Origin: Thermogladius calderae 1633
GTDB lineage: Archaea; Thermoproteota; Thermoprotei_A; Sulfolobales; Desulfurococcaceae
Direction of reading: 5' to 3'
NCBI RefSeq assembly: GCF_000264495.1
Contig: NC_017954.1
Coordinates: 372,001 to 436,000 of the forward strand
Length of the DNA stretch: 64,000 nt
This document shows, in pieces, positions 10,204 to 55,734 of this stretch. The position numbers and the translations under genes are program-made. The notes under the pieces were generated by a model, which saw only the letters and a program-made list of their open reading frames with translations, searched no databases and was not told where the DNA came from. Position 1 is the stretch's first letter. Every line of letters begins with the position of its first letter.

Positions 10204-10301
10204 CGCCGGGGCGGGGACTCGAACCCCGGACCACCGGGTTTCCACCAGGCTACCTAACGCGGTTAACAGCCCGGCGCTCTACCAGGCTGAGCTACCCCGG
10301 C
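10204..10301 (-). tRNA. tRNA-Asn (GUU) with 24-nt intron
   Basis: Read on the minus strand: acceptor GCCGGGG/CCCCGGC, D arm GCTCAGCCTGGTAGAGC, anticodon stem CCGGG/CCCGG with loop CTGTTAA (anticodon GTT), T arm CGGGG-TTCGAGT-CCCCG, discriminator G. A 24-base insert sits between positions 37 and 38 of the anticodon loop, the standard archaeal tRNA intron site. No encoded CCA. Confidence 0.95.
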
Positions 10302-25037: not shown

Positions 25038-25568
25038 TTAACTCCCATAGACCACCTCTACTATCTCGGAGTACTTCCTGTACAGACCTAGTAGGCTTAG
25101 TGCAGTAGTGAGTAATGCGAGTGAGGTTAGTACGGGTGTAAGTCTTATTCCAAACGGAGTGTAGTTTAAGACGAGCCCTACTAAGGGGACTATCGCTAGG
25201 CTTAACCCTATGGATAGAGCTAGCTCTTCGATCGGACTCAACTCCCTGCTTTGATACAGTGCTCTTATCAGCGAGTATCCCGGTAAGAATAGGACAAAAA
25301 GTGAGCCGAACAAGTATCTAGCGAAGGTTAAGATAGGGCTTGTACTCGATACAGCAACCAGCAGGAGTGTTATTGCCTCGACCGATATCAATGTCCAGAA
25401 CCAGAGCGAGTAGTCGAGTCTCACGACAACTTCTAGGAATGAGCGGGGAGGGTGTGGATCTCTTAGCTCAATGTCACCTCTCGCCCACTCCCTGTAGGCC
25501 TCCAAGACACTTTTTATTCCAGTCCTCTTCTTGGCTACATAGTCCTCAAGAGTTTCTTTGTTGCTCAA
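25038..25568 (-). CDS. DUF1616 membrane half
   Basis: 176-residue membrane protein equivalent to the N-terminal membrane part of DUF1616 proteins: FARYLFGSLFVLFLPGYSLIRALY, LSPIEELALSIGLSLAIVPLVG, LNYTPFGIRLTPVL are close to the family consensus. About four membrane spans (residues 55-165) follow a charged cytoplasmic N-terminus. The TTG start at 25568 overlaps the upstream stop as TTGA, and longer in-frame starts at 25625 run inside the previous gene. Last gene of the MoxR/DUF58 operon. Function unknown. Confidence 0.78.
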   Translation of the reverse strand: MSNKETLEDYVAKKRTGIKSVLEAYREWARGDIELRDPHPPRSFLEVVVRLDYSLWFWTLISVEAITLLLVAVSSTSPILTFARYLFGSLFVLFLPGYSLIRALYQSRELSPIEELALSIGLSLAIVPLVGLVLNYTPFGIRLTPVLTSLALLTTALSLLGLYRKYSEIVEVVYGS

Positions 25569-26047
25569 AACACGACACCCGTCACGTTCAGTCTTAGGAA
25601 GACGTATTCGCCCATGTAGACCCACGTGCTGTTATCGGGGGAGTAAACGTACAGCTCTAAAACCAGCGTCTGGTTCAACATAGGGTACGTGAAGGTCACG
25701 TTAAAAGGTATTGTCGCGTTCTCGTAGTTGCCGAGGAGTGTGTAGAGACTGAATAGAGGAGGCTTGGGTAGCGGGGTGGTGTTCGAGGGTACCCCTCCAT
25801 CCCCCACCTTCACGTCTACTCTGAATAAGGCCGTGTAGCCAAGGTGGTTGTAGACGAAGACGTTGAGAGAAATTACCTGTCCTACTCTTACGTTACTGGG
25901 GTAGTCCCCTATCTTACCCTCCTTGTTCAGCAACCCTATAGCCGCAAAGTTTTCCGAGGGTCTGGGTAGGGAGACGGCTATGCCGACAACTGACAGAACT
26001 ATGGATATAGCCAGTATGACTGCGAATACTTCGTCGTCCAAGATCAC
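25565..26047 (-). CDS. DUF1616 extracytoplasmic half
   Basis: 160-residue protein: an N-terminal membrane anchor (FAVILAISIVLSVVGIAVSL), then a beta-rich outer domain with ENFAAIGLLNKEGKIGDYPS, VRVGQVISLNVFVYNHLGY, and N-glycosylation-type sequons (NTT, NAT, NVT, NQT, NST). This corresponds to the C-terminal half of DUF1616, which in most archaea is fused behind the membrane half; here it is a separate gene and comes first. ATG start overlaps the DUF58 gene by four bases. Confidence 0.72.
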   Translation of the reverse strand: MILDDEVFAVILAISIVLSVVGIAVSLPRPSENFAAIGLLNKEGKIGDYPSNVRVGQVISLNVFVYNHLGYTALFRVDVKVGDGGVPSNTTPLPKPPLFSLYTLLGNYENATIPFNVTFTYPMLNQTLVLELYVYSPDNSTWVYMGEYVFLRLNVTGVVF

Positions 26048-27783
26048 AGCGCATCGACCACTAAACCGGTTCTCGACAACCCGGGTTCTACGACTTCGGG
26101 TAATCTGTAGGCTGTTAAACCGTGCGACTCCAGTATAAACCTTAGGAAGTCGTATTTTAACATAGTCGGCGTACCGTTTACTATCACGTAGGGTGTTTTA
26201 GTGTCTCCTACCAGTCTCTTGAACTCCTCGTATATCCTACTAGACTCTACTCTGTGTACCTCCCGCAAGAATACTACCAAAAACGGTTCTTCTAGCGTCA
26301 TCATCTTGTCTGCCACCATTTTGTAACTGCTGTTTACCGGGCTGAAATCCCAGTTCAAGCTCAGTTCCTCACTTCTAAGCACACTAATCAGGCCAGCAAG
26401 AGACTCGAGAGGAGAGCCTGATATAAAGTACTCCCTCAGCGAGGGTGTACGCAGGTAAATATAGAGACTCTCTTTCGCGTCTTTCACATACCAGACCAAG
26501 CTGAGGGTAGTCAGAACGAGGCTGTCGAGCTCCTCGTAGTTCGAGGCCACCCAGTCAGCCACTATGAGCAGACCCCCGGACCCCCCAGCCGCCCCTCCCC
26601 CGTCTCCTCTAGAGAACTCTTTGACTACGAGTTTGCCCTTACTAGCACTCTTCTTCCAGTGTATCCTCCTGGGCGGGTCGCCCGGTGTGTAGTCTCTACA
26701 ACCGATGTATTCCCCGTAGAACCCGGAAAACAGTCTCCGCATCAAAATGTACACTCTGCGGGCCAATCTCCACGCAGCGTAGTAATCCCTGGCGTCCCCA
26801 GCCGTGATAGTCTCTCCACTCCACTCTCCTAATTCTCCGCGGAGGGGAAAACCTGAACCCGCATACCCTGCGCCCGCTTCTCCTGGTGCGGGTTGAGAGC
26901 CTGCCCCAACTTGTCCAGCTGTCAGACTACTACCTAAGCCAGCACCAGTAGCGCCCCCCAACGGAACCCCGGGCTCGGTGTGTAAGACCCTCTCGCGCAC
27001 GAGTATGAGAGGTGAAGGGGTCTCTCTCAACGCCCTCCTGAGATAAGCTAGCGCTCTCTCGGAAACTACTCTAAACTTTGGGACGACTTTGAAATTCACC
27101 TTAATGGCCGGTTTCTCAATACAGGCGAAACCGCTGCTGTCACAGAACCTGGCCTTCACGAGCATGTTAACCAAGCCTATCCTAGTAGCCCTGGCCACGT
27201 ACTCGTATTCAATAGGCCCGCTCGCTAACCCCCTTCTAACGAAGTTGTCCCCGACGCGTATCTCGTACCAGGCGCTCTCCCCTATCTCAGCCCTCACCCT
27301 AATGCGTGCTTCTCCGCCGAGTTCCACTACTTTCCGGTCGGCTTCAGCAATAACGTCAATCTTACTTAGCTTGAACTGGACCAGGCCTAGTCTAAAGGCA
27401 GCCGTACTTAGTGCGGAGAACGCCGAGACTATGTTTACGGGCGTCAGTATGTAGATAGGTGTGAAAATCCCCGTGAAGACGGATATCTCGGTAAAACCGC
27501 TCCGCGCGTTGCCGGGAGAGGACTTGTAGGCGAGTACGCTTACGGCCGACGACACAGCTTTGGCTAGCAGGCACAAGGGGTCCAAGCTCAGGCAGAGAAG
27601 ACTCGACGTAAAGGTTGTGAAGCTCGTGTAAGCAGGGTCAACCATTGTAGCGGACGCCAGTACTAGAGCTACCAACGATCTGACGAAGTCCCTCTCAACC
27701 AATAGCACCAATAGAAACACGGTGAGCTGAGCTGAAACGGCGACGTAAACGGTTAGAGCCTTAAAACCTCTGTCTGACAACAA
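26044..27783 (-). CDS. DUF58 protein with Gly-rich insert
   Basis: 579 residues. N-terminal membrane spans (about residues 10-130), a beta domain (residues 140-235), then the DUF58 core: GEYIGCRDYTPGDPPRRIHW and KSASKGKLVVKEF (358-390), and a VWA-like continuation (LLIVADWVASNYEELDSLVL). DUF58 proteins are the standard partners of MoxR ATPases, here the adjacent MoxR gene. A 40-residue Gly/Ala/Pro/Gln-rich stretch (about 272-312) is inserted before the DUF58 motif. TTG start at 27783 with GGAGGA eight bases before. Confidence 0.88.
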   Translation of the reverse strand: MLSDRGFKALTVYVAVSAQLTVFLLVLLVERDFVRSLVALVLASATMVDPAYTSFTTFTSSLLCLSLDPLCLLAKAVSSAVSVLAYKSSPGNARSGFTEISVFTGIFTPIYILTPVNIVSAFSALSTAAFRLGLVQFKLSKIDVIAEADRKVVELGGEARIRVRAEIGESAWYEIRVGDNFVRRGLASGPIEYEYVARATRIGLVNMLVKARFCDSSGFACIEKPAIKVNFKVVPKFRVVSERALAYLRRALRETPSPLILVRERVLHTEPGVPLGGATGAGLGSSLTAGQVGAGSQPAPGEAGAGYAGSGFPLRGELGEWSGETITAGDARDYYAAWRLARRVYILMRRLFSGFYGEYIGCRDYTPGDPPRRIHWKKSASKGKLVVKEFSRGDGGGAAGGSGGLLIVADWVASNYEELDSLVLTTLSLVWYVKDAKESLYIYLRTPSLREYFISGSPLESLAGLISVLRSEELSLNWDFSPVNSSYKMVADKMMTLEEPFLVVFLREVHRVESSRIYEEFKRLVGDTKTPYVIVNGTPTMLKYDFLRFILESHGLTAYRLPEVVEPGLSRTGLVVDAL

Positions 27784-28606
27784 ATACTCCTCCGGCCAGT
27801 AATGTCCCTAATAGAAGAACGAGGATAAAACTGTTGTAACCCCTAGTAGAGGCGGCGAGCCTTAGGTACTCTAGGAGGTCTCTACTCTGGGCGGTCTGGT
27901 CGATCACAACCTCTCTACCGCCTCTAATTTCGTCTAGAAAGTCCTTGTTAAGGCTGAACAGGTTGTTGACGAAAATATTGCTGGACGGTATTATAAACAC
28001 TGTACCGTTGAGGTACCTGAACGCGACGCCTACGCAGAAGCTGTCCATCGGTTCGCCAGGGTCGTAAAAACCGTTACCGTTCAGGTCTATGTACGAGAAG
28101 GGTGAGGAGTACAAAATACACTCTCCACCCGGTCCCCAGCTTTCGATGGGGCGAGGTTTTTCAAGAACGACGGTTACGTTTAGCGGCCTGGAGAAGACCA
28201 CGGGTTCGAACCTAGTGCCGTGCTTGGAAACTTCATCTAGCAGTGTCCCATTGTATACCGTGACGGTCAGGTTGAGGAGGCTCGGGAACTCCTCTGTGGT
28301 GTTGTCGGCCCACATGACGACAGTGCCCCCTTTGGCGAGGTAGTCGGCGACGTACTTCAAGCCGTTACTGTCCAACGAGCTAACAGATGTAAGCACTAGT
28401 ACAGTATTCTTCGGGTCGAGCCTCTCGAGCTCGCTATACCTCAGGATTATCGCGGCGTTGTACTCTGAGTAGAGAGTCGAGAACCCATCTTTGCCGGTGT
28501 TCGCTACTGACTCGGGCTTGTTCGAGGGCACTATAACGAGTACGCTTAGGGACGTAAAAAGCAAGAACGCGGTCACGACAAACAGTAGCGGGCTAGGTCT
28601 CGGCAT
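27761..28606 (-). CDS. DUF4350-like membrane-anchored protein
   Basis: 281 residues from ATG at 28606 (GGGAG upstream). One N-terminal membrane helix (LLFVVTAFLLFTSLSVLVIV), an outer domain with YSEYNAAIILRYSELERLDP, VLVLTSVSSLDSNGLKYVADYL and GGTVVMWADN, which resembles the glutamine-amidotransferase-like DUF4350 fold, and a C-terminal helix FILVLLLGTLLAGGVFVV. DUF4350 genes commonly sit in MoxR/DUF58 clusters, which supports the reading, but sequence similarity is only moderate by eye. The segment DLNGNGFYDPGEPMD looks like a Ca-binding, dockerin-like loop. Confidence 0.65.
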   Translation of the reverse strand: MPRPSPLLFVVTAFLLFTSLSVLVIVPSNKPESVANTGKDGFSTLYSEYNAAIILRYSELERLDPKNTVLVLTSVSSLDSNGLKYVADYLAKGGTVVMWADNTTEEFPSLLNLTVTVYNGTLLDEVSKHGTRFEPVVFSRPLNVTVVLEKPRPIESWGPGGECILYSSPFSYIDLNGNGFYDPGEPMDSFCVGVAFRYLNGTVFIIPSSNIFVNNLFSLNKDFLDEIRGGREVVIDQTAQSRDLLEYLRLAASTRGYNSFILVLLLGTLLAGGVFVVRQRF

Positions 28607-30311
28607 TTCTAATCTCCCTTGCAACCGACTCGGCTTCCTCTCTCTTGGGCTTATCACGCGAGTAGAGCTCCTTCTCTACTAACACGAGTAGCCTCCATAG
28701 GAGGCTCTTAATAGCGGTGTTGATCCTTAGGCTGGCAAAATGCTCTCTAAGCGTCTCCTGCGCCTCGGGCTTTCTGAACCCCAACTCGTTTAGTAGCCTG
28801 TAGTACAGGCCGGCCACTGGCAGCTGGCTGCTGAGGTAATTTATAAACCGAGAGACGCTCCTCGGCGAACTTCTCCTCCCACTTCTAGAACCAACATGTT
28901 TCAACACCAAGTACACTCCCCTCTCGTGAGCTACGAGAAGTGGCAGTACAAAAGTGGCAGCAAGGACGATAGACAGGAGTGTCAGCGGGTTTATGTACAG
29001 CACAGATACACGGTGTACTGCCGGCTGGTAGACAGAGCCCTCTACTGGGTATACCTCTATTACGGCCTCTACGCGGTCGAACAGCCCCAATCCACCGTTT
29101 AAGTAAGCTATACCGTCCTTGGAGACGTCTCTTTCACCACCACTTGTAACAACGACTATTCTGGAAGCGTTCCCCAACGCTCTCACAAGTACGGGTATCG
29201 CGTTGGAGAGGCTCACGTATACCGAGGGTGCCTCCACGAGGACGGGGACCTCGGGTCTCTCGACGAGTAGCGGGATCGAGACTGTGCCGCCCAGGTACTT
29301 GAAGCCAGGCTCTAGCCTCACTACGAGGTAGTGTGTTCCGGGCGTGGCGTTGTCGGGGATCTTGAAAGTTACAACAACGCCCTCTTCCCTTAAATAGCCC
29401 TCGAAGAGCACGTCTCGATCTAGTAGGACAGAGGCAGGACACCCCTCGGCGGGGACTATGTTCGCCGAGACAAGCTCCCCGGGCCGCACAACCCTGGGTA
29501 CGTTGACTGTTATGTTATTGGTGTATAAGTCTAGTGTCAGGAGTGAAAGGGCCGACGAATTGGCCGAGTCCCGTATCTCGACATGAGCGACCACAGTGTA
29601 CTTCCCTGCGGGTAACACCTCGCCCAGTTTGCTTGCCGGGGGGATACTTACATCGATCTTGTTGACACCCGTTGAAACAGAGAACTCTTCGGTGACCAAG
29701 GTTGTGAGTCCTGGGAGTACAGCCAAGACTAGGGACCCGTTAAAGACGCCCTCTTCTAAGACAACGATCTTAAACGACACGGTGTCGCCTGGGGCAATAG
29801 CTTGCGAGCTCGGGTACACCTTGATAGAGCTGCTTGACCTGGACGTGGCTAGGTATACCATTGTCTGGTTCAGTAGGCTGTCAACCCTGTCCAGCAACGA
29901 ATAGACCTTTCCCGAGTAGAGCGAAGCAGTGCTCTTGTCTACACTACATGCTGTAAGAGTTTTAACGTATGATTCGACGTCTGTTCTCAGCCTCTTGGAT
30001 AAATCCGCGATATGCTCTAGGGTGGCGGCGACACCGCTCTCGTTGAACACCGTGTTAAGGGCGTCGTGTAGATCGACGAGGTCTTCCACGACACTGCCGT
30101 GTAACTGGCTTATTGGTGGAGGTAGGACTGCCTTCGAGTACAGGTTTAGTAAGTCTGTCGAATTGTTGCCGCTCAAGGAGGCTTCCATAACTTTGTACAG
30201 TGAGGCGATGAGGGCTTGGCAGTCGAGGCCGGCCTCGTCGGCACGGCCTATGCTTGGGAGGGGGAGCGCGAGGACAAGAGCGAGTAAAACGGCTAAGGCG
30301 AGCTTCGTCAA
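28593..30311 (-). CDS. Exported Ig-like protein with DUF4129-like tail
   Basis: 572 residues: signal peptide (LALAVLLALVLALPLPSIGRA), helical region to about residue 165, two to three Ig-like beta domains (170-450, with PGDTVSFKIVVLEEGVFNGS and PGELVSANIVPAEG), one membrane helix (LTLLSIVLAATFVLPLLVA, about 455-475), then a cytoplasmic tail SQLPVAGLYYRLLNELGFRK that ends with ETLREHFASLRI, like the DUF4129 C-terminal domain. Many NxT/S sequons suggest N-glycosylation outside. In other genomes DUF4129/transglutaminase-like proteins accompany MoxR and DUF58; the transglutaminase domain itself is absent. Confidence 0.6.
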   Translation of the reverse strand: MTKLALAVLLALVLALPLPSIGRADEAGLDCQALIASLYKVMEASLSGNNSTDLLNLYSKAVLPPPISQLHGSVVEDLVDLHDALNTVFNESGVAATLEHIADLSKRLRTDVESYVKTLTACSVDKSTASLYSGKVYSLLDRVDSLLNQTMVYLATSRSSSSIKVYPSSQAIAPGDTVSFKIVVLEEGVFNGSLVLAVLPGLTTLVTEEFSVSTGVNKIDVSIPPASKLGEVLPAGKYTVVAHVEIRDSANSSALSLLTLDLYTNNITVNVPRVVRPGELVSANIVPAEGCPASVLLDRDVLFEGYLREEGVVVTFKIPDNATPGTHYLVVRLEPGFKYLGGTVSIPLLVERPEVPVLVEAPSVYVSLSNAIPVLVRALGNASRIVVVTSGGERDVSKDGIAYLNGGLGLFDRVEAVIEVYPVEGSVYQPAVHRVSVLYINPLTLLSIVLAATFVLPLLVAHERGVYLVLKHVGSRSGRRSSPRSVSRFINYLSSQLPVAGLYYRLLNELGFRKPEAQETLREHFASLRINTAIKSLLWRLLVLVEKELYSRDKPKREEAESVAREIRNAET

Positions 30312-30559
30312 GACGCTAAGACCTCGTAGACCCTGTACGATACCAGGGCTATGAATAGCGTTATTAAGATCCCGTGTAGGACTCCTACAACCCTCCTGTT
30401 CTCAAAACTAGGCCTGTTCATGGCGTACGATATGTAGAACGAGAGGATGTTGAGTACAACGTACACGTCCCACCGTGTCTCGCCTAAAAACAGAACCCAG
30501 CCATTCAAGACCAGGGTTAAGACTATATACAGGCGCACGAACCTGTCCAGCTCGCTCAC
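30308..30559 (-). CDS. Small membrane protein of MoxR operon
   Basis: 83 residues with about three hydrophobic helices (LYIVLTLVLNGWVLFLG, VYVVLNILSFYISYAM, VLHGILITLFIALVSY). No recognisable family. It overlaps the next gene by four bases and follows the previous one after one base, so it is embedded in the operon and probably real. Confidence 0.65.
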   Translation of the reverse strand: MSELDRFVRLYIVLTLVLNGWVLFLGETRWDVYVVLNILSFYISYAMNRPSFENRRVVGVLHGILITLFIALVSYRVYEVLAS

Positions 30560-30560
30560 A

Positions 30561-31220
30561 CTACCCCACCCTTAAGAACACCTCGGCATTACCGCCCGCG
30601 AGACTAACCCTCTCAAGGCAGACAACCCGGTCTTTAAGCCTACCCACGGCTGCGAGCACGTACCCTACGAGAGGGTTGTAGGGGTATTTTAGTAGATCAG
30701 CGAACTCGGGCGGTAGATTGAAGAGAACTACTCTCACGGAGCCCTCTTCCTCGAATAAGGCTATGTTATTACAGAGCCCTCTGTTAGAGCACAGGGCACT
30801 ACGCAGGTCCGCGGTGCTCAGCTTATCGTAGTCGGCTAAAACACTAGATATAGGGAAGGCTATGTACGGTGTATCGGCGTAGCCTACACCAGGTTTTTGA
30901 ACAGCGTGTGGAGCGCTCTTCGAGAAAACGACGTACTCCTCCCCGCCCGAACCCCTCATATAGCAAGGTCTCACACCCAACATGTCGGCGTCTTGTAGTA
31001 TACTCGTGATAGCCACGGTCGACGCCAGAGAGTACTCTTTGAGAGATAGAAGCAGGCTCTCGCTCGTAGAAGCCGAGGTGAAGATCAGGACTACACCTAT
31101 AACAGCTGTCGAGGCACCCATACCTATGATAGGCTGGCTACCCGTTACGACACCGTACGCGATCAGTATAGAAGCGATAACGACTATGTTCAAGCCGGCT
31201 ACCATGTAGCGCAGTATCAA
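30561..31220 (-). CDS. Membrane-anchored protein of MoxR operon
   Basis: 219 residues: two N-terminal membrane helices (LNIVVIASILIAYGVV, ASTAVIGVVLIFTSA), then a soluble domain of about 160 residues with YSLASTVAITSILQDADML, PYIAFPISSVL and cysteines near CSNRGLCNNI. The domain has a mixed alpha/beta appearance and no named family I can recognise. ATG overlaps the upstream gene by four bases. Confidence 0.65.
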   Translation of the reverse strand: MILRYMVAGLNIVVIASILIAYGVVTGSQPIIGMGASTAVIGVVLIFTSASTSESLLLSLKEYSLASTVAITSILQDADMLGVRPCYMRGSGGEEYVVFSKSAPHAVQKPGVGYADTPYIAFPISSVLADYDKLSTADLRSALCSNRGLCNNIALFEEEGSVRVVLFNLPPEFADLLKYPYNPLVGYVLAAVGRLKDRVVCLERVSLAGGNAEVFLRVG

Positions 31221-31864
31221 ACCAGCCCACCCAGGTAGTAAACGACGGGTTTAATTATGGTGTCAAATACCACGATGACATCTGCCCTCTCCGAGCTATC
31301 GAGAGCAAGATTTTTCGCCATGTAGACGATATACGAATACACCAAGTATAAGAGGTTCACACTCAGGACCGGGCTAAGGTAAAGGGGGATAAAGTAGATC
31401 GAGACCAAGACGGCGCTGTCTAAACTAGCCGGTTCTAGTAGCCTGGCCGAAAACAAGACATCGTATACAGCAACCACGGACACGCTCAACGGGTTCTTGA
31501 TGCCCAGAATTACGCCTAATGTAGTTGACAAAAGTAGGGGCGGTAGGATATACGGTCTGTAGAGAGACTGGTACTTATCCACATCTGTGGAAGAGTAGAG
31601 CCCCAGAATTAGAACGGCGAGACACGCTAGATCAAGTAGCCACAGAGGCGTGTTGAGCGATGTGATGAGCGCTTTTACGGTCAAAGGTACGTAAATGAGT
31701 AACGGCTGTAAGTCTAGACTCCCCCCTCTGCTTAGTGAAAAGTAATAGGCCTCTAGTACAGCCGTGAACGAGCCTAGTGCTACAACTAGCGATAGTAGGC
31801 CGGGGGCAAAATACTCAAGGATCGAGGTTGTAGCTAGTAGTGTGACTACTAGTATATCGAGCAT
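31217..31864 (-). CDS. Polytopic membrane protein of MoxR operon
   Basis: 215 residues, about six to seven membrane spans (for example ILVVTLLATTSILEYF, LSLVVALGSFTAVLEAYYF, LLDLACLAVLILGLYS). No motif identified. Starts 10 bases after the MoxR stop. Likely the membrane platform for the neighbouring soluble domains, an inference from position only. Confidence 0.65.
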   Translation of the reverse strand: MLDILVVTLLATTSILEYFAPGLLSLVVALGSFTAVLEAYYFSLSRGGSLDLQPLLIYVPLTVKALITSLNTPLWLLDLACLAVLILGLYSSTDVDKYQSLYRPYILPPLLLSTTLGVILGIKNPLSVSVVAVYDVLFSARLLEPASLDSAVLVSIYFIPLYLSPVLSVNLLYLVYSYIVYMAKNLALDSSERADVIVVFDTIIKPVVYYLGGLV

Positions 31865-31874
31865 TTCGAGCGAC

Positions 31875-32912
31875 CTACTTTGGGACAGGGACTCTATTTA
31901 GAGCCTCTTCGACAAGGCTCTTCGGGGTCACACCCTCGACCTCGAACTCCTCCCTGATCTTGACCCGGTGCGCTAAGATGGGGACCGCGAGGGCCTTCAC
32001 GTCATCAGGTATAACGTAGTCCCGCCCCTCCATGAAGGCGAGGGTCCTAGACACTCTGTATAACCAGACGCTAGCTCTATGGCTAGGCCCGTAATGCACG
32101 GCTCGGGAGCTCCTCACGTAGCTCACTAGATCAACTATGTACTTCTTGACGTTCTCCTCCACGTGCACCCAGTAAGCGATCAACTCGGAGATCTTAGTCA
32201 CGTCGGACGGTGTGAGCACCTGCTCGACTGGAGGCTGTATCACGTAGTCTGACCTCGAGACTATTTCGAGTTCTTCCTCGGGTGGGTTGTAGAGCGAGGG
32301 CAGGCTAGTAGCAAACCTGTCGATCACCGTCTCGATCACGCCGTAAGCCCCGCTCGCGTACTCCTGGGGGATCATCGTCGCGATCACCATGAAAGGCCTG
32401 GGCAGAGAGTAGGTGGCCCCCTCGACCGTGACCTGGTATTCCTGCATCGCCTCTATGAGTGCGGCTTGAGACCTGGACGGCACCCTGTTAAGCTCGTCGA
32501 GCAGTAGAATATTAGAGAAGACAGGCCCTCTCACAAAGCTCGATGAACCGTCCGGCCTATACACGTGGAAGCCTGTTATATCAGAGGGCAGCGTATCGGG
32601 GTGTCCCTGGACCCTCCTGTAAGTCCCACCTATAACTCTGGCTAGCGTCTTTGCTAGAAGGGTTTTACCGGTGCCGGGTAAGCCCTCGATCAGCAGGTGG
32701 CCGCTACTCAGAAGCGTTGCCATGCTAAGCTTTACTAAATCCTCCTTCCCGACGTAGACCTTCTTGATCTCGCCTAGGGCTTGTTTGACCATCTCGCGGG
32801 CGTGGTCTATATCAAACGACAAGCCTGAATCCCTAGCGAGCCGCTTCATCAATAATTTCACGTTGTCAATATAAGCCTTAACTACCTCTTGTACCTCCTG
32901 CGGACTAACCAC
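31875..32912 (-). CDS. MoxR-family AAA+ ATPase
   Basis: 345-residue MoxR ATPase, a chaperone-like AAA+ usually paired with VWA/DUF58 proteins. Walker A GLPGTGKT (77-84), Walker B LLLDELNR (136-143), SQAALIEAMQEYQVTVEG as in the MoxR family, IDRF (197-200), C-terminal lid with VIPDDVKALAVPILAHRV. The usual sensor-1 motif ATQNP is here ATMIP (178-182), and the family LPEAQLDRF is VIETVIDRF. GTG start at 32912 overlaps the upstream gene by 31 bases. Confidence 0.93.
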   Translation of the reverse strand: MVSPQEVQEVVKAYIDNVKLLMKRLARDSGLSFDIDHAREMVKQALGEIKKVYVGKEDLVKLSMATLLSSGHLLIEGLPGTGKTLLAKTLARVIGGTYRRVQGHPDTLPSDITGFHVYRPDGSSSFVRGPVFSNILLLDELNRVPSRSQAALIEAMQEYQVTVEGATYSLPRPFMVIATMIPQEYASGAYGVIETVIDRFATSLPSLYNPPEEELEIVSRSDYVIQPPVEQVLTPSDVTKISELIAYWVHVEENVKKYIVDLVSYVRSSRAVHYGPSHRASVWLYRVSRTLAFMEGRDYVIPDDVKALAVPILAHRVKIREEFEVEGVTPKSLVEEALNRVPVPK

Positions 32913-33328
32913 TTCTTCCTAGTCTTGAACCACAGGTAGGCCCAGGCACGCGGTAGCAGGAAGTACACAGCTATAGGTATGGACGCGAAGCCGACCACTG
33001 TGCCGGCTAGCGTAATGTAGCGCCAGGTTACGAAACTGGAATACGAGCTCTCAAGGGACGACAGCTCCTCTCTGGCCAGGGTGAGGTTGCCTTCAACCCA
33101 CGCCGCCTCTTCGGGGGTCAGGTTGCCTTTGTTTATGAGCGACAAGGCGTTGTTCACGTACTCCTCCACCATACTGGTGTTCATGCCCGCTTGGCTTAGG
33201 CTCTTCAACTTAGTAGCTATCTCCTCTACCTGGGCGAGGTAGTCAGGCGACGCAGCCCAAACGACCTCAGCCGCTAAAACGAGGATTGCGAGAACGGCGG
33301 CTACCGGCCTGACCATAGAGCTCCTCAT
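32882..33328 (-). CDS. Small exported membrane-anchored protein
   Basis: 148 residues: signal peptide (VAAVLAILVLAAEVVWA), a helical, probably coiled outer domain of about 80 residues (IATKLKSLSQAGMNTSMVEE, EEAAWVEGNLTLAREELSSL), one membrane helix (ITLAGTVVGFASIPIAVYFLL), and a short basic tail ending RRRYKR. ATG at 33328; ATG at 33316 has GAGGAG just before it and may be the true start. No named family. The basic tail faces the cytoplasm where the MoxR ATPase is. Confidence 0.65.
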   Translation of the reverse strand: MRSSMVRPVAAVLAILVLAAEVVWAASPDYLAQVEEIATKLKSLSQAGMNTSMVEEYVNNALSLINKGNLTPEEAAWVEGNLTLAREELSSLESSYSSFVTWRYITLAGTVVGFASIPIAVYFLLPRAWAYLWFKTRKKWLVRRRYKR

Positions 33329-33352
33329 CTCGCCTTCGGGGTCTAATCATCC

Positions 33353-34018
33353 CTAGACCTTTGTTAGAGTCCCGTTGGTTAAAAGGTATTCCTCGTCCCC
33401 CGTGAAGCTCTTGATGTTTATCTCCGTAGTGGTGATTACGAAGGAGACCCCGAGCCTGTCCCTAAGCTCTCTTATAGTGTTGAACAGTTTTTCTACACCC
33501 TTATCGTCAACGTAGGCGAAGGGCTCGTCCGCGACGACGAGCCTAGGCTTGGTCACCAGGCTCCTAGCCAAGGCGACAACCTGCTTCTCGCCGCCGCTCA
33601 ACGTCTCCACTCTTCTCTCAAGCATGTGCGGTATTCCGAGCAGCTCGCTTACTTCCCTGACGGCCAGCTCTCTGTCTCTCCTCTTCAGACCCTTAATAAT
33701 TACCGGTAGCTCTATGTTTTCCTTTACTGTTAGATTAGGGAGCAGGTCTATTGTCTGAGGGATGTACGATATGGTTCCCGATACGAGCCTAGACCTCGCA
33801 GCAGTGCCGAGTCTCCACGCGTCGACGCCGTTTATCAGTACCCTGCCCTCGTCAGGCTTTAGCAGTAGGACCATGAGCTTTAGTAGGGTCGTCTTACCGG
33901 CCCCGCTCCTACCCCTTACCACGACGATCCTCGAGGGCCCTACTTGTAGGTCGACGTTCTCGAGTACAACCCTTCCGTTAATGGTCTTTCTGACCTTTTC
34001 CAGCTTAACGAGCTCCAC
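33353..34018 (-). CDS. ABC transporter ATPase, LolD/MacB type
   Basis: 221-residue ATP-binding subunit. Walker A GRSGAGKTT (35-43), Q-loop IPQTIDLLPNLTVKENIELP as in LolD/MacB/FtsE types, signature LSGGEKQ, Walker B RLVVADEP, switch region TTTEIN in place of the usual His. Partners are clearly the two FtsX-like permeases upstream. Unusually, the normal H-loop histidine appears as Thr-Glu (ITTTEINI); worth noting for activity. GTG start at 34018. Confidence 0.92.
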   Translation of the reverse strand: MELVKLEKVRKTINGRVVLENVDLQVGPSRIVVVRGRSGAGKTTLLKLMVLLLKPDEGRVLINGVDAWRLGTAARSRLVSGTISYIPQTIDLLPNLTVKENIELPVIIKGLKRRDRELAVREVSELLGIPHMLERRVETLSGGEKQVVALARSLVTKPRLVVADEPFAYVDDKGVEKLFNTIRELRDRLGVSFVITTTEINIKSFTGDEEYLLTNGTLTKV

Positions 34019-34044
34019 TAGGCTGACCCTACCCCGCTACACTG

Positions 34045-35562
34045 CTATACCAATAAGAGGAAACCGTTGCCGTTGTTTAAAACGGTACCGTTGGCCCTAT
34101 TCGGGTCCACACTCACTTTTACAACCCGGCCGGCGGACACGAGTGCCCCGTTCGTCGCCATGTACCTGTACAGGAGTCTCAGGGACTCTGATCCGCACGG
34201 GATCTGTGCCGTCTCAACCCCGTAGAAACCACTCAGCATCATGCTCTGCTTCACGTCGCTACACACCTTCAACCCTGTAAGTTTTTCCTTGAGTAAGAGC
34301 CCCGTGTAGACCTCGCTCTCCCTGTACACCCAGTACCACCCAAGGGGGGCCGCTACCCCGGTGAAGGTCAGGACGTAGACGAGGACTGACGTTGCGAGGA
34401 AAAGGGCGGACGCAAGAACAGCACGCCTCCTACGGTGCCCGTTGATGGTTAACGGGGCTAGAACTACGATGAACCCGGCCACTCTGTAGATTATGGACTC
34501 GTAGCCGGGGATCTCCTCCCCGACAAAGAACGCGATCAGGCCCGCTATAGCGGTGAACCACGCGAGAGAAGAGAGCGTTGTCCTGTCCTTCGACACAGCG
34601 TTAATGGCCACGATGAGTAGTGCCGTTAGAACGAGGAGCACTGTCAGAGCGAGACTCACCGTGTCTAGAGAGTAAACGACCTCTGCGACCACGCCCGATA
34701 AAGCGACCCCTGTAATAAGGGATAGGAGAGCCGTGACGTCTAATAAACGCTCCTTCACCTTGACTACGAAGACCCCTATTGCTAGCCCGACCAGGCTGAA
34801 AATCACAACGTAGGAGACTAAGCTGAGAGCAAGCCAACCCGTTACAGCCGAGAGCGTCGAGAACCTCCCCAGCGTAAGGTACTGCAGGGATTGCGATACG
34901 GCTAGCGGCACAGAGGGGACGACAACCCTACGAAACTCCACCGCCCAGTAGGGTAGCGGCTTATATAGCCTGACTACGTGGGCTAAGAACGACGAGAACA
35001 GGATGACGGTAGCGATTAGAGAAGTAAGGTGGTGGGTGAACGGAAGCGCCAGCGCGGAGACCACGGGTATAACCGGGCCTAGATTCGCTCTGCTGACGAG
35101 GGAGTAGACCATCATTAAGAGGAGGACGTAGGCGTACCCCTCTTTTGTGTAAGCGGCCGTCATCATCAGGACGTTGAAGGCCGCCCCTATCACTATCGCG
35201 GCCAGGGCGCCCTCTAAACCCTTCCTAAACGAGTAGACAATTGTTATGATCGACACAGTAATCAAGCTCGTTATCGTGGCTACGGAGAGCAGCAGGCTGG
35301 TCCCCGCCACCTCGCTGAAGATAGCCAGTTCAAACGATGTTGCTGGCCAGTAGTTGTTGTAGCCGTCGAAAACGCTGGAGTAAAGGCTAATAGGCGAATA
35401 CTGGCTCAACACCTGCGAGTTCCGTAGAATACCCCACACGTCGGTCGAGAAGAAAGTACTGCTGGTAATGTAGAGTGCGAGCCTTGCTAGGAGCGGGATT
35501 GAGACGGCCAATAGTAGAAGCAGAACACCAATGTTACGCCTCTTCTCCAATTTTGCTGACAC
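34045..35562 (-). CDS. GT-C-like polytopic membrane protein in ABC/MoxR operon
   Basis: 505 residues, about twelve membrane spans. The first outer loop has ITSSTFFSTDVWGILRNSQV, an Asp-containing loop like those of GT-C glycosyltransferases, followed by YNNYWPATSFELAIFSEVAG; the C-terminal 80 residues form an outer domain with two cysteines (KVCSDVKQ, QIPCGSES). I cannot name the family. It sits between the permease and ATPase of an ABC exporter; GTG start overlaps the permease gene by 29 bases, so it is translated with it. TTG at 35550 is an alternative start. Confidence 0.65.
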   Translation of the reverse strand: MSAKLEKRRNIGVLLLLLAVSIPLLARLALYITSSTFFSTDVWGILRNSQVLSQYSPISLYSSVFDGYNNYWPATSFELAIFSEVAGTSLLLSVATITSLITVSIITIVYSFRKGLEGALAAIVIGAAFNVLMMTAAYTKEGYAYVLLLMMVYSLVSRANLGPVIPVVSALALPFTHHLTSLIATVILFSSFLAHVVRLYKPLPYWAVEFRRVVVPSVPLAVSQSLQYLTLGRFSTLSAVTGWLALSLVSYVVIFSLVGLAIGVFVVKVKERLLDVTALLSLITGVALSGVVAEVVYSLDTVSLALTVLLVLTALLIVAINAVSKDRTTLSSLAWFTAIAGLIAFFVGEEIPGYESIIYRVAGFIVVLAPLTINGHRRRRAVLASALFLATSVLVYVLTFTGVAAPLGWYWVYRESEVYTGLLLKEKLTGLKVCSDVKQSMMLSGFYGVETAQIPCGSESLRLLYRYMATNGALVSAGRVVKVSVDPNRANGTVLNNGNGFLLLV

Positions 35563-36667
35563 CTCTCAACACGATAAACGTCTGAATAATTACGAGGCCC
35601 AGGGTGTACAGCAACGTGTTGTCTGGTTGCAGGTCGAGGCTGATACTGTGGAACAGCACCTGGAAGCGCAGAAGCCCGTGGAGAAGCCAGGTAAGCAAGG
35701 CCCCGAGAGCATACCCCGACACGAACAAAGCTATTAGGGAGCCTGCGGCCATAAACCTCACCCTCCTCGTATCAAGCACCACCTCGAGAAGCGTGTGCAG
35801 GACTTTCCTTTTCGTCTTCAAGTAGTATGACGAGGTCTCGACCAGTACGGCCGTCGAGAGTATCAAGGAGCCAGCTATCCCGAGAAGACTCGTCTCCCTA
35901 CTCAAGTTGACTACGTCGCCGAAACCCTTGATCGACACGACTCCTTTGAACCCTCCTCTCTGAGACTCGAACAGGGAGACGAGCCAGCTCGGTATGCTTA
36001 CCTTGAGCCCGTAACCCACGCTGGTGTTGCTCGCGACGGCCTCCAATAGCCTGGTCGCCTGCTCGTCTAGGCTACTACACGTCAAGACGCTGTACTCGCC
36101 TACACCTACACCTCTTAGAAGCCTGGCTATATCAAGGCTCGTCAAGACCTCGTCGTCAAGTAGCGTCCCTGTCTCGAAAACGCCGGATACCTCGACTGCT
36201 ACAGCTTTGTTGTTCAAAACCCCTCTCAGTAGGAGTAGTTCTCCTGGAGAGACGCCCACCTCGCTCGAGACCCGGGCGCCAACCATAACGTTGAACCCGT
36301 CTACTCTCGGCTCTCCGACAACCTTGCCTGCGCCAATTACCTGTTGGACCTTGTCTGGTGGTACACCCCGGACTACCACGGGCTTCGCGTCGTTGATCAG
36401 CGCAGGGGCTAAGACGACAGGGACACACTTCCCGCCAGTACTGTTGACTACGTAGTCTGCTAAGCGACTCGGTAGTAGACCGGTCACCACGAAGCTGTAC
36501 CTGTTATAGACCAGTAGGTCACTGCCCCCTCTAGCGACCTCTAGTGGCGCTAGTATAATGTCCCCCGCTATGCTTATGGCGACCATGCTGAAAGAGACGA
36601 CGACTGCTAGTACCGCTGCCGAAGCGAAGTAGTCTTTGTCGAAGAAGAGTTTCAATAAGACGTTCAC
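35534..36667 (-). CDS. FtsX/MacB-like permease
   Basis: 377 residues with MacB topology: helix 1 (AAVLAVVVSFSMVAISIAGDI), outer domain of about 200 residues (VGEPRVDGFNVMVGARVSSE, GVSPGELLLLRGVLNNKAV, as in MacB periplasmic core domains), then three helices (LLGIAGSLILSTAVLVE, SLIALFVSGYALGALLTWLL, LLYTLGLVIIQTFIVL). Paired with the next permease and ATPase as a heterodimeric exporter or mechanotransmission complex. ATG overlaps the upstream gene by four bases (ATGA). Confidence 0.82.
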   Translation of the reverse strand: MNVLLKLFFDKDYFASAAVLAVVVSFSMVAISIAGDIILAPLEVARGGSDLLVYNRYSFVVTGLLPSRLADYVVNSTGGKCVPVVLAPALINDAKPVVVRGVPPDKVQQVIGAGKVVGEPRVDGFNVMVGARVSSEVGVSPGELLLLRGVLNNKAVAVEVSGVFETGTLLDDEVLTSLDIARLLRGVGVGEYSVLTCSSLDEQATRLLEAVASNTSVGYGLKVSIPSWLVSLFESQRGGFKGVVSIKGFGDVVNLSRETSLLGIAGSLILSTAVLVETSSYYLKTKRKVLHTLLEVVLDTRRVRFMAAGSLIALFVSGYALGALLTWLLHGLLRFQVLFHSISLDLQPDNTLLYTLGLVIIQTFIVLRGVSKIGEEA

Positions 36668-37524
36668 CCGTACACCCTCCTCGTCACCCTCCTGGCTATG
36701 AACGTGTGGGGTAGTAGGGCGATGGCTGCTATCAAAGCGTAAGAGCGCGCGAAGCCGACTAAGTTTATGTACGGACTTACAACGATCGGGGCCTTCAGGA
36801 GGTATTTTGCTACAACGGTGAGAGTACGCGACAGAACTATAGAGAGACTAAAACCGAGGAGTGCACCGGTCACGGCCGTGACCGCGATCGAGAGGAGAAG
36901 ACCGGCGGCTACGGACCCTCTCCCGCCTCCTAGCTCCCTAATCACTAGTGCCGTGTTCGCTAAGTCGTCCTCTCTTTTCAAGCCGAGTAAGAGGGAGCCC
37001 AGGAGCAGTACGGCTAGAGCAAAGTAGACGAGGGCTTCTCCCACGTTCTCGAACTCGCGCACTACACTGGAGGAAGCTATCGACAATGGGTGCAGGCTCT
37101 CGTCGCACCCCGAGGCAGGTTTCAACGCCGGCGCCTCATCTGGGAAGTAACCCGTGATGACGACGCTGGTTTTCACCGGGCCGATCTTGACCTCGGCTTG
37201 GAGGCGGGTGGGCAGCTCGCTCCCGTACTGGAGTAGTTTTAGTAGTCCAGTGGAAGCCAGCATCTCGACGCCTCCACGGGACCCCTCGGCTACGGAGGGG
37301 CAGTAGACTACTAGGGGGATCTCGCTCTCGTTCGCGAGTAACACGCCGACGCTAGCCGGTTGCGCCGGCGGGGCGTTCACTATAGAGCTTAGACCGCTGA
37401 CGATGACCACGACGGGTGTGAAGAACAACTGTATCATAAAAATTATGCTAGACACGAGCACTGTAAACAGGAGGAGTTCGCCGAGGCAACACCTCGTGAA
37501 AGCCACTATCGGGGGCATCTTCAT
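36664..37524 (-). CDS. FtsX/MacB-like permease, first gene of operon
   Basis: 286 residues with the same topology as its neighbour but a shorter outer domain: helix 1 (LLLFTVLVSSIIFMIQLFF), outer domain of about 110 residues with cysteines in VVYCPSVAEG and SGCDESL, then three helices (ALVYFALAVLLLGSLLLGL, GLLLSIAVTAVTGALLGFSL, SYALIAAIALLPHTF). ATG at 37524 has GGAGGAGA seven bases upstream. Only 19 bases separate it from the 3' end of tRNA-Leu, leaving no room for a separate promoter. Confidence 0.78.
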   Translation of the reverse strand: MKMPPIVAFTRCCLGELLLFTVLVSSIIFMIQLFFTPVVVIVSGLSSIVNAPPAQPASVGVLLANESEIPLVVYCPSVAEGSRGGVEMLASTGLLKLLQYGSELPTRLQAEVKIGPVKTSVVITGYFPDEAPALKPASGCDESLHPLSIASSSVVREFENVGEALVYFALAVLLLGSLLLGLKREDDLANTALVIRELGGGRGSVAAGLLLSIAVTAVTGALLGFSLSIVLSRTLTVVAKYLLKAPIVVSPYINLVGFARSYALIAAIALLPHTFIARRVTRRVYG

Positions 37525-37543
37525 CGGTTCTCCTCCAGCTTAG

Positions 37544-37641
37544 TGCGGGGGGTGGGATTTGAACCCACGCAGGCCTACACCAGCGGATCTCCCCTGGGCT
37601 ACTTGAGTCCGCCCCCTTTGGCCTGGCTCGGGCACCCCCGC
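37544..37641 (-). tRNA. tRNA-Leu (CAA) with 13-nt intron
   Basis: Minus strand: acceptor GCGGGGG/CCCCCGC, anticodon stem GCGGA/TCCGC, loop CTCAAG-A with anticodon CAA, interrupted after position 37 by TAGCCCAGGGGAG (plus-strand 37589-37601), class II variable arm, T arm GTGGG-TTCAAAT-CCCAC, discriminator A. TATA-like GATATAAATTAA (37648-37659, read on minus as TTAATTTATATC) sits just upstream. Body nearly identical to tRNA-Leu(UAA) at 2118. Confidence 0.95.
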
Positions 37642-50343: not shown

Positions 50344-51843
<1,500 letters not shown>

Positions 51844-51857
51844 GCAACCCCGCCGCC

Positions 51858-51897
51858 GGGGGGCATGCTACGTGAAAAGCCACTGCCGCCCTGCCCC
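51858..51897 (+). other. 16S processing stem, 3' arm
   Basis: GGGGGGCATGCTAC, GTG, GCCAC and GCCGCCCTGCCCC pair with the 5' arm before 16S. Followed by a spacer hairpin CACAGGGC/GCCCTGTG (51915-51936 region). The 16S-23S spacer carries no tRNA. Confidence 0.75.
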
Positions 51898-51977
51898 TCT
51901 CTCCGATGCAGCACAGGGCCTCAGAGCCCTGTGTAAAGGGCGTTATTCCTCCTCCGATAACGGGAGGGGGAGATGAA

Positions 51978-52035
51978 CGCCGCAGGTAGGTCTATCAGGG
52001 GTGCTAGTCGAGCTCCGCGTGGGCGTTGCTCTCGC
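51978..52035 (+). other. 23S processing stem, 5' arm
   Basis: CGCCGCAGGTAGGTCTATCAGG pairs perfectly with the 3' arm; further in, CCGCGTGGGC and GCTCTCGC pair with GCCCACGCGG and GCGAGAGC. Interior bulges between the helices mark the bulge-helix-bulge site used to excise pre-23S. Confidence 0.75.
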
Positions 52036-52570
52036 ATCCCAGGCTACGGCGAGGAAGCCGCCTGGTGGATGGCTCGGCTCGGGCGCCGAGGAAGGCCGTG
52101 GCAAGCTGCGATAAGCCCGGGGTAGGCGCAGGCAGCCGTCGAACCCGGGATCGCCTAATGGGACCTCCTGCCACGGGCTTTAAGCCCGTGGCGCCCGGGA
52201 AACCGTCGAGGGAGTACCGGGCGGGAACCCCCCGAACGGAAACATCTTAGTAGGGGGAGGAAGAGAAATCAAACTGAGATCCCCTGAGTAGGGGCGACCG
52301 AAAGGGGGAGAGCCCAAACCAAACCCCCACGGGACGACCGTGGGGGGATGTGGGGTTACCGGCTCCACGGCTAGGGGTTCGACCCCGAGCGGGCCTACCC
52401 ACGGTAGCCGAAGTGGCCTGGAATGGCCCGCCGTAGAGGGTGACAGCCCCGTAGGCGAAACCGTGGGGGCTCGCGCCGTGGAGCAGAGTACCACGGCTTG
52501 GTTGTGCCGTGGGAAGTAGGGGGTCACCGACCTCCAAGGCTAAACACGTCCCGAGACCGATAGCGAACTT

Positions 52571-52602
<32 letters not shown>

Positions 52603-53284
52603 CAAGGGGGGTGAAAAGAGCCTGAAACCAGGCGGCTACATACGGCGCTGCCCTAAAGAGGTGACGCCCCCGAAGGAAACCGGGGCGACCCGGGAGTACG
52701 AGGGGGGTTGATCAGGGTGGCGCCGTCCGTCTTGAAACACGGGCCGGGGAGTCCACGGCAGTGGCGAGCTTAAGGGGTTAAACCCCGTAGGCGTAGGGAA
52801 ACCGACATGCCCGCAACCACGGTTAAGCCGTGGCGAGGGGCGGGGTCCCAAAGGGCCCGGAGTCACTGCCGTGGGACCAGAAACCGGGCGATCTAGGCGG
52901 GGGCAGGGTGAAGCCGGGGGAAACCCCGGTGGAGGCCCGAAAGGGTTCTGACGTGCAATTCGTTCCCATGACCCCCGTCTAGGGGCAAAAGACCAATCAA
53001 GCCCGGTGATAGCTGGTTCCCGCCGAAGTGGGTCTCAGCCCAGCCCCGCCTGAGGTGGGCCACGGGGTAGAGCTACGGATTGGGGGTGCAGGAGCCGAAA
53101 GGCTCCGGCCTCCAGTCCAACTCCGAACCCGTGGTCACCGTAGAAGGCGGGAGTGGGGTTCCCCGCCGTAAGGGTGGGGGCCGAGAGGGGAACAACCCAG
53201 ACCGGGGTTAAGGCCCCTAAGTGCCGGCTAAGTGCCAATCTTAAAGGGCGTCCCACGGCTCAGACAGCGGGGAGGTGGGCCTAA

Positions 53285-53328
<44 letters not shown>

Positions 53329-54151
53329 CCGTGGGGCCCCGAAGATTGGTCGGGGCTTAAGCCGGCCGCCGAGACCCCGGGGCACGGCCCCTATGGGGCC
53401 GTGATCTGGTAGGCGGGCGTCGGGTCGGGGCAGAAGCCGGGCCGTGAGGTCCGGTGGACCCGATCCGAGTGCAGATCCCGGCGGCAGTAACAGCGAAGAG
53501 GGGTGGGAATCCCCTCCGCCGGAAAGGACCAGGGTTCCTCGGCAACGGTCGTCGGCCGAGGGTTAGCCGGTCCTAACCCGGGCCGTAACTCGGACCCGGG
53601 GAAAGGGAAACGGGTTAACACTCCCGTGCCGCGGGGGTAGGCGCGGCAACGCAAGCCCAGCCTCCGACGCCTCCGGATAGGCGGACTGGGGGCGGTCGAA
53701 TGACCGCGACCCAGCTAACCGGTGAAGGCCCCGGAGTACCGTAATGGTGAGAAGGGGCTGAAGCCGGGAATGGGGCCCCGTTAGGGGCCTTCCGCCGACT
53801 CCGGGGGCCCTTGAAAAGGGGGCTGGGAACGATCCCCCGCGCCCGTACCGAGAACCGACACAGGTGCTCCTGGGTGAGTAGCCCCAGGCGTGTGGGGGTT
53901 AACCCGGGCCAGGGAACTCGGCAAATTGGCCCCGTAACTTCGGGAGAAGGGGTGCCTGCGGTTCTGGGGCGCACCCCTGGAACCGCAGGTCGCAGTGCCT
54001 AGGGGGGCCTGACTGTTTAATAAAAACATAGGTCCCCGCTAGCCCGAAAGGGTTTGTACGGGGGCTGAATCCTGGCCACTGGCGGTCCGTGAAACCGGGG
54101 TACAACCCGGCGAAGCGCCGCTGAAGGCCGGGAGTAACTCTGACTCTCTTA

Positions 54152-54734
54152 ACGGGAGAGCCCCATCGCTTGGCAGGTCGTAGGCTTATCAGTCCCTGGC
54201 TACAAATTGGCGGTCGGGGGCGTATAATTGAGTGGTAATGAGCTGATAAACGGCTATGTGATCGGGCTAATAGATGCCGAGGCCTCGTTTTCGGTTAGTG
54301 TAAAACTACAGAAGGACCTAGTGTATGGTATAAGACTAGACCCAGCATTCAGTATCACGCAGCTCGAGGAACAGACGCTGAAAATTGTGAAAAACGTAAT
54401 CGGCGCAGGGAGGATAATTAAGAAACCCGGGCAAGAGCACCTGTACGTGCTAATAATAGACAATATGAAGGAGCTAAACGAACAATTGATACCCTTCATA
54501 AACAAGCACGTTGGGCTACTACACTCAAAAAGAAGGCAATACGAAATATTTAGAGAAATTGTGAGTGCCCTGTACAGAGGTGAGCACAAAGACCCACTAA
54601 AGCTCAGGGAGCTCATTCTAAAAGTGTATGAATTGTCAAACCTGAGCAGAAAATCGCGCAGGAAAAGGGCCCTCAGAGAGGTACTTGAAATAATCGAATC
54701 TCGTATTGCCAAGCGGTGGGGCCTCCCGGGAGAA
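54152..54734 (+). other. Archaeal 23S rRNA intron (583 nt)
   Basis: A canonical bulge-helix-bulge is formed at the junctions: 3-nt bulges TAA (54150-54152) and AAA (54733-54735) separated by a 4-bp helix CTCT/GGAG, with the intron stem CGGGAG/CTCCCG inside. Cutting after the second base of each bulge joins CTCTCTTA to AGGTAGCC, restoring the universal CTCTCTTAAGGTAGC. This is a known archaeal insertion position, about E. coli 1925-1927. The intron carries a homing endonuclease gene. Confidence 0.92.
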
Positions 54735-54740
54735 AGGTAG
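54228..54740 (+). CDS. LAGLIDADG homing endonuclease, I-CreI-like
   Basis: 170 residues, one LAGLIDADG motif (YVIGLIDAEASF, residues 10-21), so it should act as a homodimer like I-CreI rather than as a two-motif monomer like I-DmoI. The order of active-site elements follows I-CreI: acid Glu18, FSITQLEEQ with Gln45, then LHSKRRQ with Lys101, at spacings close to D20/Q47/K98 of I-CreI. TTG start. The linear reading frame ends at a TAG that lies six bases inside exon 2 (GAA-AGG-TAG); on a circularised intron it would instead read on for 28 codons from the intron 5' end. AT-richer than the surrounding rRNA, as expected for a mobile insert. Confidence 0.9.
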   Translation: MSGNELINGYVIGLIDAEASFSVSVKLQKDLVYGIRLDPAFSITQLEEQTLKIVKNVIGAGRIIKKPGQEHLYVLIIDNMKELNEQLIPFINKHVGLLHSKRRQYEIFREIVSALYRGEHKDPLKLRELILKVYELSNLSRKSRRKRALREVLEIIESRIAKRWGLPGER

Positions 54741-55250
54741 CCAAATGCCTTGCCGGGTAAGTTCCGGCGCGCATGAATGGATCAACGAGGTCCCCACTGT
54801 CCTGGCCCGGGGCCCCGTGAAGACACGGAGCCGGTGCACAGGCCGGCAACCCCCCGCAGGGCGATAAGTCCCTGTGGAGCTTTACCGCAGCCTGGCGCTG
54901 ACCTCTGGGCTGTGGTGCGTAGCGTAGGTGGGAGCTTGTGAAGCCACACCTCCGGGTGTGGCGGAGGCGCCAATGAAACACCACCCACTACAGCCTGGGG
55001 GCCTCACCCCGGGGGAGACCCTGGGGGACAACGCCAGGTGGGCGGTTCGGCTGGGGCGGCACGCCCGCGAAAAGATAACACGGGCGCCCAAAGGTCGGCT
55101 CAGGCGGGTCAGAGCTCCGCCGTAGAGTGCAAGGGCAAAAGCCGGCCTGACCGGACCCTTGAACACAAGGGGTCCGGCCGGGAAACCGTGGCCTAGCGAA
55201 CGCTCGTGTCCCCCTCGGTGGGGGCCGGGCATGACAGAAAAGTTACCCCA

Positions 55251-55302
<52 letters not shown>

Positions 55303-55361
55303 ACATCGATGTCGGCTCTTCCCATCCTGGGGGTGCAGCAGCCCCCAAGGGTGGGGCTGCC

Positions 55362-55414
<53 letters not shown>

Positions 55415-55734
55415 ACTCTACCCGCGGGGGGCGCGGGCCGCCTGAGGGGAAGGTGCCCTCAGTACGAGAGGAACGGGGCGCCGCGGCCTCTAGTCTACCG
55501 GTTGTCCTGGCGGGCAACGCCGGGCAGCCACGCCGTGTGGGGTAACCGCTGAAAGCATCTAAGCGGGAACCCCTCCCCGAGACGAGGCGGCCGTCCGTCA
55601 CGGGGCCACCCGTGGCGGGTAGGGCTCCCGTAGAAGACGGGGTTGATGGGGCGGGGGTGTGAGCCCCAAGGGTTCCCCCGAGGGGTTCAGCCCGCCGCTC
55701 CCAAAAGCCCGACGCCGTAGCTACTCACCCGGGA

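Follow-up and report, generated by a model that had tools for sequence, protein, structure and literature searches.

A fourteen-gene cluster of Thermogladius calderae as a candidate version of a Thermoproteota-wide system for export or maturation of cell-surface proteins

We propose that fourteen neighboring genes of the archaeon Thermogladius calderae are that organism's version of a cell-surface protein export or maturation system present across the Thermoproteota, a reading to which we give, from gene order and domain content, a probability of roughly 55%. The genes lie at positions 25038-37524 of the window, by which we mean the whole 64,000-nucleotide stretch of DNA that was analyzed, in a genome (G000) of 1,356,318 bp. 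In the order of transcription they are

36664..37524, minus strand: permA (g01), small permease of FtsX topology; homologs lie just upstream of permB in relatives
35534..36667, minus strand: permB (g02), FtsX/LolC/MacB-like permease
34045..35562, minus strand: GTC (g03), polytopic membrane protein, GT-C-like by topology only
33353..34018, minus strand: ABC ATPase (g04), LolD/MacB-like (PF00005, E 2.3e-32)
32882..33328, minus strand: g05, secreted helical domain, one transmembrane segment (TM) and a short conserved cytoplasmic tail (from the alignment)
31875..32912, minus strand: MoxR AAA+ ATPase (g06; PF07726, E 6.5e-43)
31217..31864, minus strand: membrane protein g07, found by profile matches mainly with the archaeosortase-type core
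30561..31220, minus strand: core membrane protein g08, profile matches in 16 loci
30308..30559, minus strand: small core membrane protein g09, profile matches in 16 loci
28593..30311, minus strand: g10, signal peptide, Ig-like region, TM and DUF4129-like C-terminal tail (from the alignment)
27761..28657, minus strand: DUF4350 protein (g11), GldG/GIFT-like (E 1.3e-5 in the window, below the Pfam cut-off)
26044..27783, minus strand: DUF58 protein (g12) with a vWA-like C-terminal region, the long (clade A) form
25565..26047, minus strand: DUF1616 C-half (g13, 1616C), TM and outer beta domain (PF07760 positions 151-285, E 6.6e-9)
25038..25625, minus strand: DUF1616 N-half (g14, 1616N), membrane part (PF07760 positions 6-118, E 1.4e-25)
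37543..37641, minus strand: tRNA-Leu, its 3′ end 18 nt upstream of permA, in the same place in two relatives

The fourteen open reading frames are confirmed by the ORF list. An earlier note on this DNA had counted fourteen minus-strand genes with no gap above 26 bp, and both the ORFs and a second genome agree: in a contig of Thermogladius sp. KUA_Bin11 (L031) all fourteen are matched in identical order, with three ORFs broken, each exactly at a 100-N scaffold gap. Adjacent longest ORFs overlap by 4, 29, 31, 4, 4, 65, 23, 4 and 61 bp, or are separated by 26, 24, 10 and 1 bp. The cluster is thus nearly gapless, as had been described, but the overlaps of 4-31 bases given for it hold only if two genes begin at later start codons. 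The start of g11 is probably at 28606, because the L031 ORF begins at this later start. MoxR is 97% identical between the window and L031, and dN/dS is 0.03-0.45 in 13 of the 14 genes; the one exception is permB, whose value of 0.7 is based on 135 codons beside a scaffold gap. A crude scan of all internal genes found no TATA-like hexamer close upstream of any of them. As a separate observation, dS between the two genomes spans about 30-fold along the cluster, from 0.01 for g05 to at least 0.3 for g10 and DUF1616, as if the cluster were a mosaic made by recombination.

The tRNA-Leu also precedes permA in L031 and in L117, where the called start of permA lies farther away. ARAGORN labels it tRNA-Leu AAG, which is unusual for archaea; by eye, the sequence fits the anticodon CAA, followed after position 37 by an intron of 13 nt (CTCAAG/TAGCCCAGGGGAG/A). 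Elsewhere in the window, Rfam finds a tRNA of about 98 nt at 10204-10301 (minus strand) that ARAGORN missed and that probably contains an intron, and 16S and 23S rRNA genes lie at 50344-55723 (plus strand).

The evidence that matters most is what becomes of these genes in other genomes. We mapped homologs in loci sampled from the order (98 genomes) and from the phylum (200 genomes). Widespread in these genomes is the core (MoxR, g08, g09, g10, DUF4350 and DUF58), together with g05 and the two DUF1616 pieces. In 18 of the genomes inspected, some of them from families outside the order, permA-permB-GTC-ABC stands in the same cluster as the core. The complete or near-complete clusters are those of G000, G043, G089, G013, G091, G086, G049, G020, G007, G048, G057, G054, G238, G228, G253, G118, G254 and G198, where assembly breaks leave the clusters of G086, G091 and G049 only partly visible. 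The arrangement changes from one genome to another. With ART standing for an archaeosortase, the order is g05-1616C-1616N-permA-permB-GTC-ABC-ART-MoxR-...-DUF58 in G043, ART-MoxR-...-1616N-permA-permB-GTC-ABC in G089, and core-permA-permB-GTC-ABC-g05-1616C-1616N in G238, G228 and G253. A tree built from MoxR, g10, DUF4350 and DUF58 separates a clade A (18 tips, the window included) from a clade B (16 tips), and there are ABC-linked members in both. Across the 98 genomes, the core co-occurs with 1616N (Fisher p 5e-16) and with GTC (Fisher p 5e-6), both values being uncorrected for phylogeny. Could the ABC set and the core have come together by chance? On these gene orders that does not seem plausible, because the linkage has re-formed in so many arrangements. 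The block is conserved in relatives, in differing arrangements and as separable modules.

How well are the individual assignments supported? Those of the ABC ATPase and of MoxR, made before any search, are firm. The best PDB matches of g04 are LolD proteins (1.1e-32), and the best NCBIfam model is also LolD (6.6e-42), although the match is under that model's equivalog cut-off. For the permeases the picture is mixed. The topology of permB, read from sequence as a TM, a large outer domain and then three TMs, favors the FtsX type, but its PF02687 (FtsX) match stays below the cut-off (E 0.0018, 18.8 bits against 25.5), the LolC match in the PDB is weak (E 0.9), and permA has no match to the FtsX-type permease profile. 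As for GTC, searches of Pfam, NCBIfam and the PDB sequences gave no match to a GT-C family, so those collections lend the proposed GT-C label no support. An FSTD motif is conserved after TM1 in the alignment, and AlphaFold2, given an alignment of two sequences only (window and L031), returned a pLDDT of 34.

In the core, the DUF4129-like label of g10 finds support in 6 of 14 homologs (best E 2.8e-7). The DUF4350 and DUF58 labels are carried by relatives: the window's DUF4350 match falls below the cut-off while that of homolog L112 is above it (E 1.5e-18), and the window's DUF58 match (E 0.0013) is below the Pfam cut-off while a homolog reaches 3.3e-9, above it. The Thermogladius genome holds a second MoxR/DUF4129/DUF4350/DUF58 locus (L092, 4074-10463, plus strand), which resembles the window's cluster in these four components but differs from it by having no DUF1616, ABC or archaeosortase genes; its next gene encodes an M42 aminopeptidase.

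The DUF1616 pieces had been described as a split gene. Two pieces are indeed present, both above the PF07760 cut-off, but the gene is not damaged. In the window they are not N-half then C-half in one polypeptide; they are separate and, relative to the Pfam model PF07760, in reversed order, the upstream piece being the C-half and the downstream piece the N-half. In the 200 Thermoproteota genomes, essentially all PF07760 matches are to one half or the other, and where the halves occur together, the C-half usually comes first. They are even fused in reversed order in G107, G118, G123, G137 and G145. We therefore rejected a frameshift or sequencing error, since reversed halves recur across the phylum. 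The exported protein g05 does have a secreted domain, as had been noted, but it belongs with DUF1616: it is fused to the C-half in L112 and L115, and it is the middle piece of C-half/g05/N-half composite proteins in L149, L150, L153 and L154. Moreover, the N-half is fused to GTC in L143 (778 aa), L144 (676 aa) and L145 (628 aa), from genomes G139, G201 and G251. These fusions are the best evidence, among the sequences compared, that the GT-C-like protein may work with DUF1616. Separately, g05 was considered as an archaeosortase substrate and rejected, because the protein ends in a long cytoplasmic tail that is conserved.

Most clade A clusters carry, upstream of MoxR, an archaeosortase of about 550 aa. 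Of 10 members tested, 9 match PF09721 above the cut-off, and several members match TIGR04178; these proteins of the relatives also have the motifs Cys-Arg-His and, toward the C-terminus, a conserved domain that is EpsI-like by motif only. ART is found in 21 of the 98 genomes, 19 of which have the core (Fisher p 3e-9, uncorrected for phylogeny). We rejected it as an obligatory part, as most clade B cores do without it. All three of Cys, Arg and His are kept in 12 of 20 ART homologs. The sole Thermogladius copy (G000:C1:103250-104830; L098, 9197-10873, minus strand) is away from the cluster, and it is a long intact ORF with other residues at the aligned catalytic Cys and His positions. Catalytic residues are also missing from the ARTs of G019, G085, G091, G080, G031 and G086, and from that of G049, which is a fragment. 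Placed on the tree of the core, the degenerate ARTs of G086, G085, G031, Thermogladius, G019 and G080 are interleaved with lineages having intact ones, and several independent losses would thus be the simplest reading.

Other archaeosortase loci deserve mention in their own right. More distant homologs of about 690 aa (L162-L167) occur in other families near DUF1616 halves or g08-like genes, and no MoxR core was seen in the stretches examined. In G003 (L090, 10100-11735, minus strand) two proteins stand beside an archaeosortase and DUF58, a secreted one of 216 aa and a Thr-rich one of 325 aa; the Thr-rich protein ends in a TM and a basic tail and is a candidate glycosylated archaeosortase substrate. 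In L107 (9995-10339; G030:C1:1003604-1004209), adjacent fragments of an archaeosortase with an in-frame stop and of 1616N are apparently the remnant of a decayed locus.

Where is the boundary between the parts of the cluster? The earlier note set an ABC half against a half running from MoxR to DUF1616, and that boundary is wrong. The core of the window lies nested, with g05 on one side and 1616C on the other. In G077 and G071, which show the same nesting, the archaeosortase follows g05 and precedes MoxR, and GTC is absent. In G058, which the search tool groups in the same genus, permA-permB-GTC-ABC-g05-1616C-1616N stand at the same site without the core. They are flanked there by the L10e/diphthamide side (a judgment from position and size) and an aminotransferase/epimerase pair; the cores of G058 are elsewhere, in L094 with an archaeosortase and in L093 without. 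Judged by these gene orders, MoxR...DUF58 therefore sits inside an ABC-g05-DUF1616 module, and the modules are {permA, permB, GTC, ABC, g05, 1616C, 1616N} and {ART, MoxR...DUF58}. The neighboring epimerase and aminotransferase were considered as sugar genes and rejected, as the pair looks like what we take to be threonine catabolism.

The separability of the modules raises the possibility that they function independently in the envelope, one as an FtsX-type exporter with DUF1616 and the other as a chaperone set of MoxR and DUF58, and are merely co-located and co-transcribed. Besides the core-free site of G058, several genomes carry one module without the other: there are cores without the ABC set in G077, G071, G019, G066, G123 and G145; the converse, an ABC set at a site that has no core, occurs in G058, G041, G067, G061, G008, G010 and G024. 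The earlier note had named independent gain and loss of the halves as grounds against a single machine, and this is in part what we see. But the re-forming of the linkage takes place in both clades, and DUF1616 sits with either module besides co-occurring with the core as strongly as it does, so that we regard two unconnected modules as unlikely.

Less likely again is that the cluster exports a capsule or exopolysaccharide, with GTC and flanking GT2 and Wzx-like proteins making and flipping a glycan, the ABC transporter releasing it and MoxR/DUF58 regulating the process. GT2 and Polysacc_synt proteins adjoin the cluster in several genomes, but the window's own cluster contains neither GT2 nor a flippase, most of the conserved parts are Ig-like protein-binding scaffolds, and polysaccharide export is not known for FtsX/LolCDE-type transporters. 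Speaking for the capsule is the classical link of exosortases to exopolysaccharide loci, as the title of PMC1569441 indicates. Finally, the cluster could encode a regulator or assembly chaperone of a surface appendage, a pilus or archaellum, as has been proposed for other archaeal MoxR/vWA pairs, which a census links to archaeal pili (PMC4858521). We consider this improbable, as no pilus genes were noticed in the clusters in an unsystematic look.

We return to the export or maturation of surface proteins. Most likely the machine would use ATP to assemble, anchor or release surface proteins that are glycosylated, a function that we infer from the LolD-like ATPase, the FtsX-like permeases, the type 2 glycosyltransferases (GT2) and Wzx-like flippases that recur beside clusters in several genomes, and the published secretion view. 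The membrane-anchored outer domains of g10 (Ig), DUF4350 and the DUF1616 pieces g05, g13 and g14 would build up an outer scaffold to which a secreted substrate binds. From the cytosol, the MoxR AAA+ ATPase may assemble or remodel this scaffold by way of two partners, the vWA-like DUF58 protein and the DUF4129-like tail of g10, and the LolD-like ATPase with its two FtsX-type permeases would transmit ATP-driven movement across the membrane so that the substrate is released, extracted or loaded. The GT-C-like protein, tied physically to DUF1616, might supply or transfer a glycan or lipid-linked group. Relatives whose archaeosortase is intact could also cut the C-terminus of the substrate and re-anchor it at the same site; in Thermogladius this cutting chemistry would have been lost. 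The single machine that the earlier note suggested is favored by the clustering in both clades, the DUF1616N-GTC fusions and the GT2/flippase neighbors, but its modules are separable and glycosylation enters by context only. A bolder version, which we find tentative and rather doubtful, is an unrecognized anchoring machine that combines a MoxR/vWA chaperone, an FtsX-type ABC transporter, a GT-C-like transferase and a dedicated archaeosortase; if it is true, the archaeosortase has repeatedly become a catalytically dead yet retained subunit.

Among known systems, the mechanotransmission ABC systems LolCDE, MacB and FtsEX share with the cluster a LolD-like ATPase and two permeases of FtsX topology; the cluster differs in being archaeal, in having no outer-membrane partner that we could see, and in the GT-C-like gene between the permease and ATPase genes. 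The archaeosortase/exosortase systems with EpsI share with the relatives' ART the PF09721/TIGR04178 domains, the Cys-Arg-His residues and a C-terminal domain that is EpsI-like by motif only, whereas ART adjoins MoxR and the core, and the Thermogladius copy is unlinked and lacks the Cys and His. The closest comparison is with the putative secretion system of arCOG01314, predicted in 2015 from gene neighborhoods (Makarova et al. 2015, PMC5898192). The accessible part of that paper gives it DUF4350, MoxR, a vWA/Ig protein, an Ig-like surface protein, pfam07760 and small membrane proteins, all shared with the cluster; the window has the membrane-anchored DUF4350, MoxR with DUF58 (vWA/Ig) and the pfam07760 neighbor. 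The MoxR half is already published there as a predicted secretion system. The arCOG01314 text and Table 2, in that accessible part, list no ABC/permease/GT-C-like set and no archaeosortase, and give neither g05 as a part of DUF1616 nor the reversed DUF1616 order. In the literature searched, where subscription papers are sparsely covered, that paper was the only one found on arCOG01314, with no follow-up, and no mention of an archaeosortase together with MoxR or DUF58 was found; we likewise found no earlier description of the ABC partner set and the archaeosortase link to an arCOG01314-type core. With an FtsX-type ABC transporter, a GT-C-like protein and an archaeosortase tied to it, the arCOG01314 system would gain testable roles, namely a source of power, a covalent modification and a substrate signal, and a system so linked would shed light on the processing of S-layer and other surface proteins in Thermoproteota.
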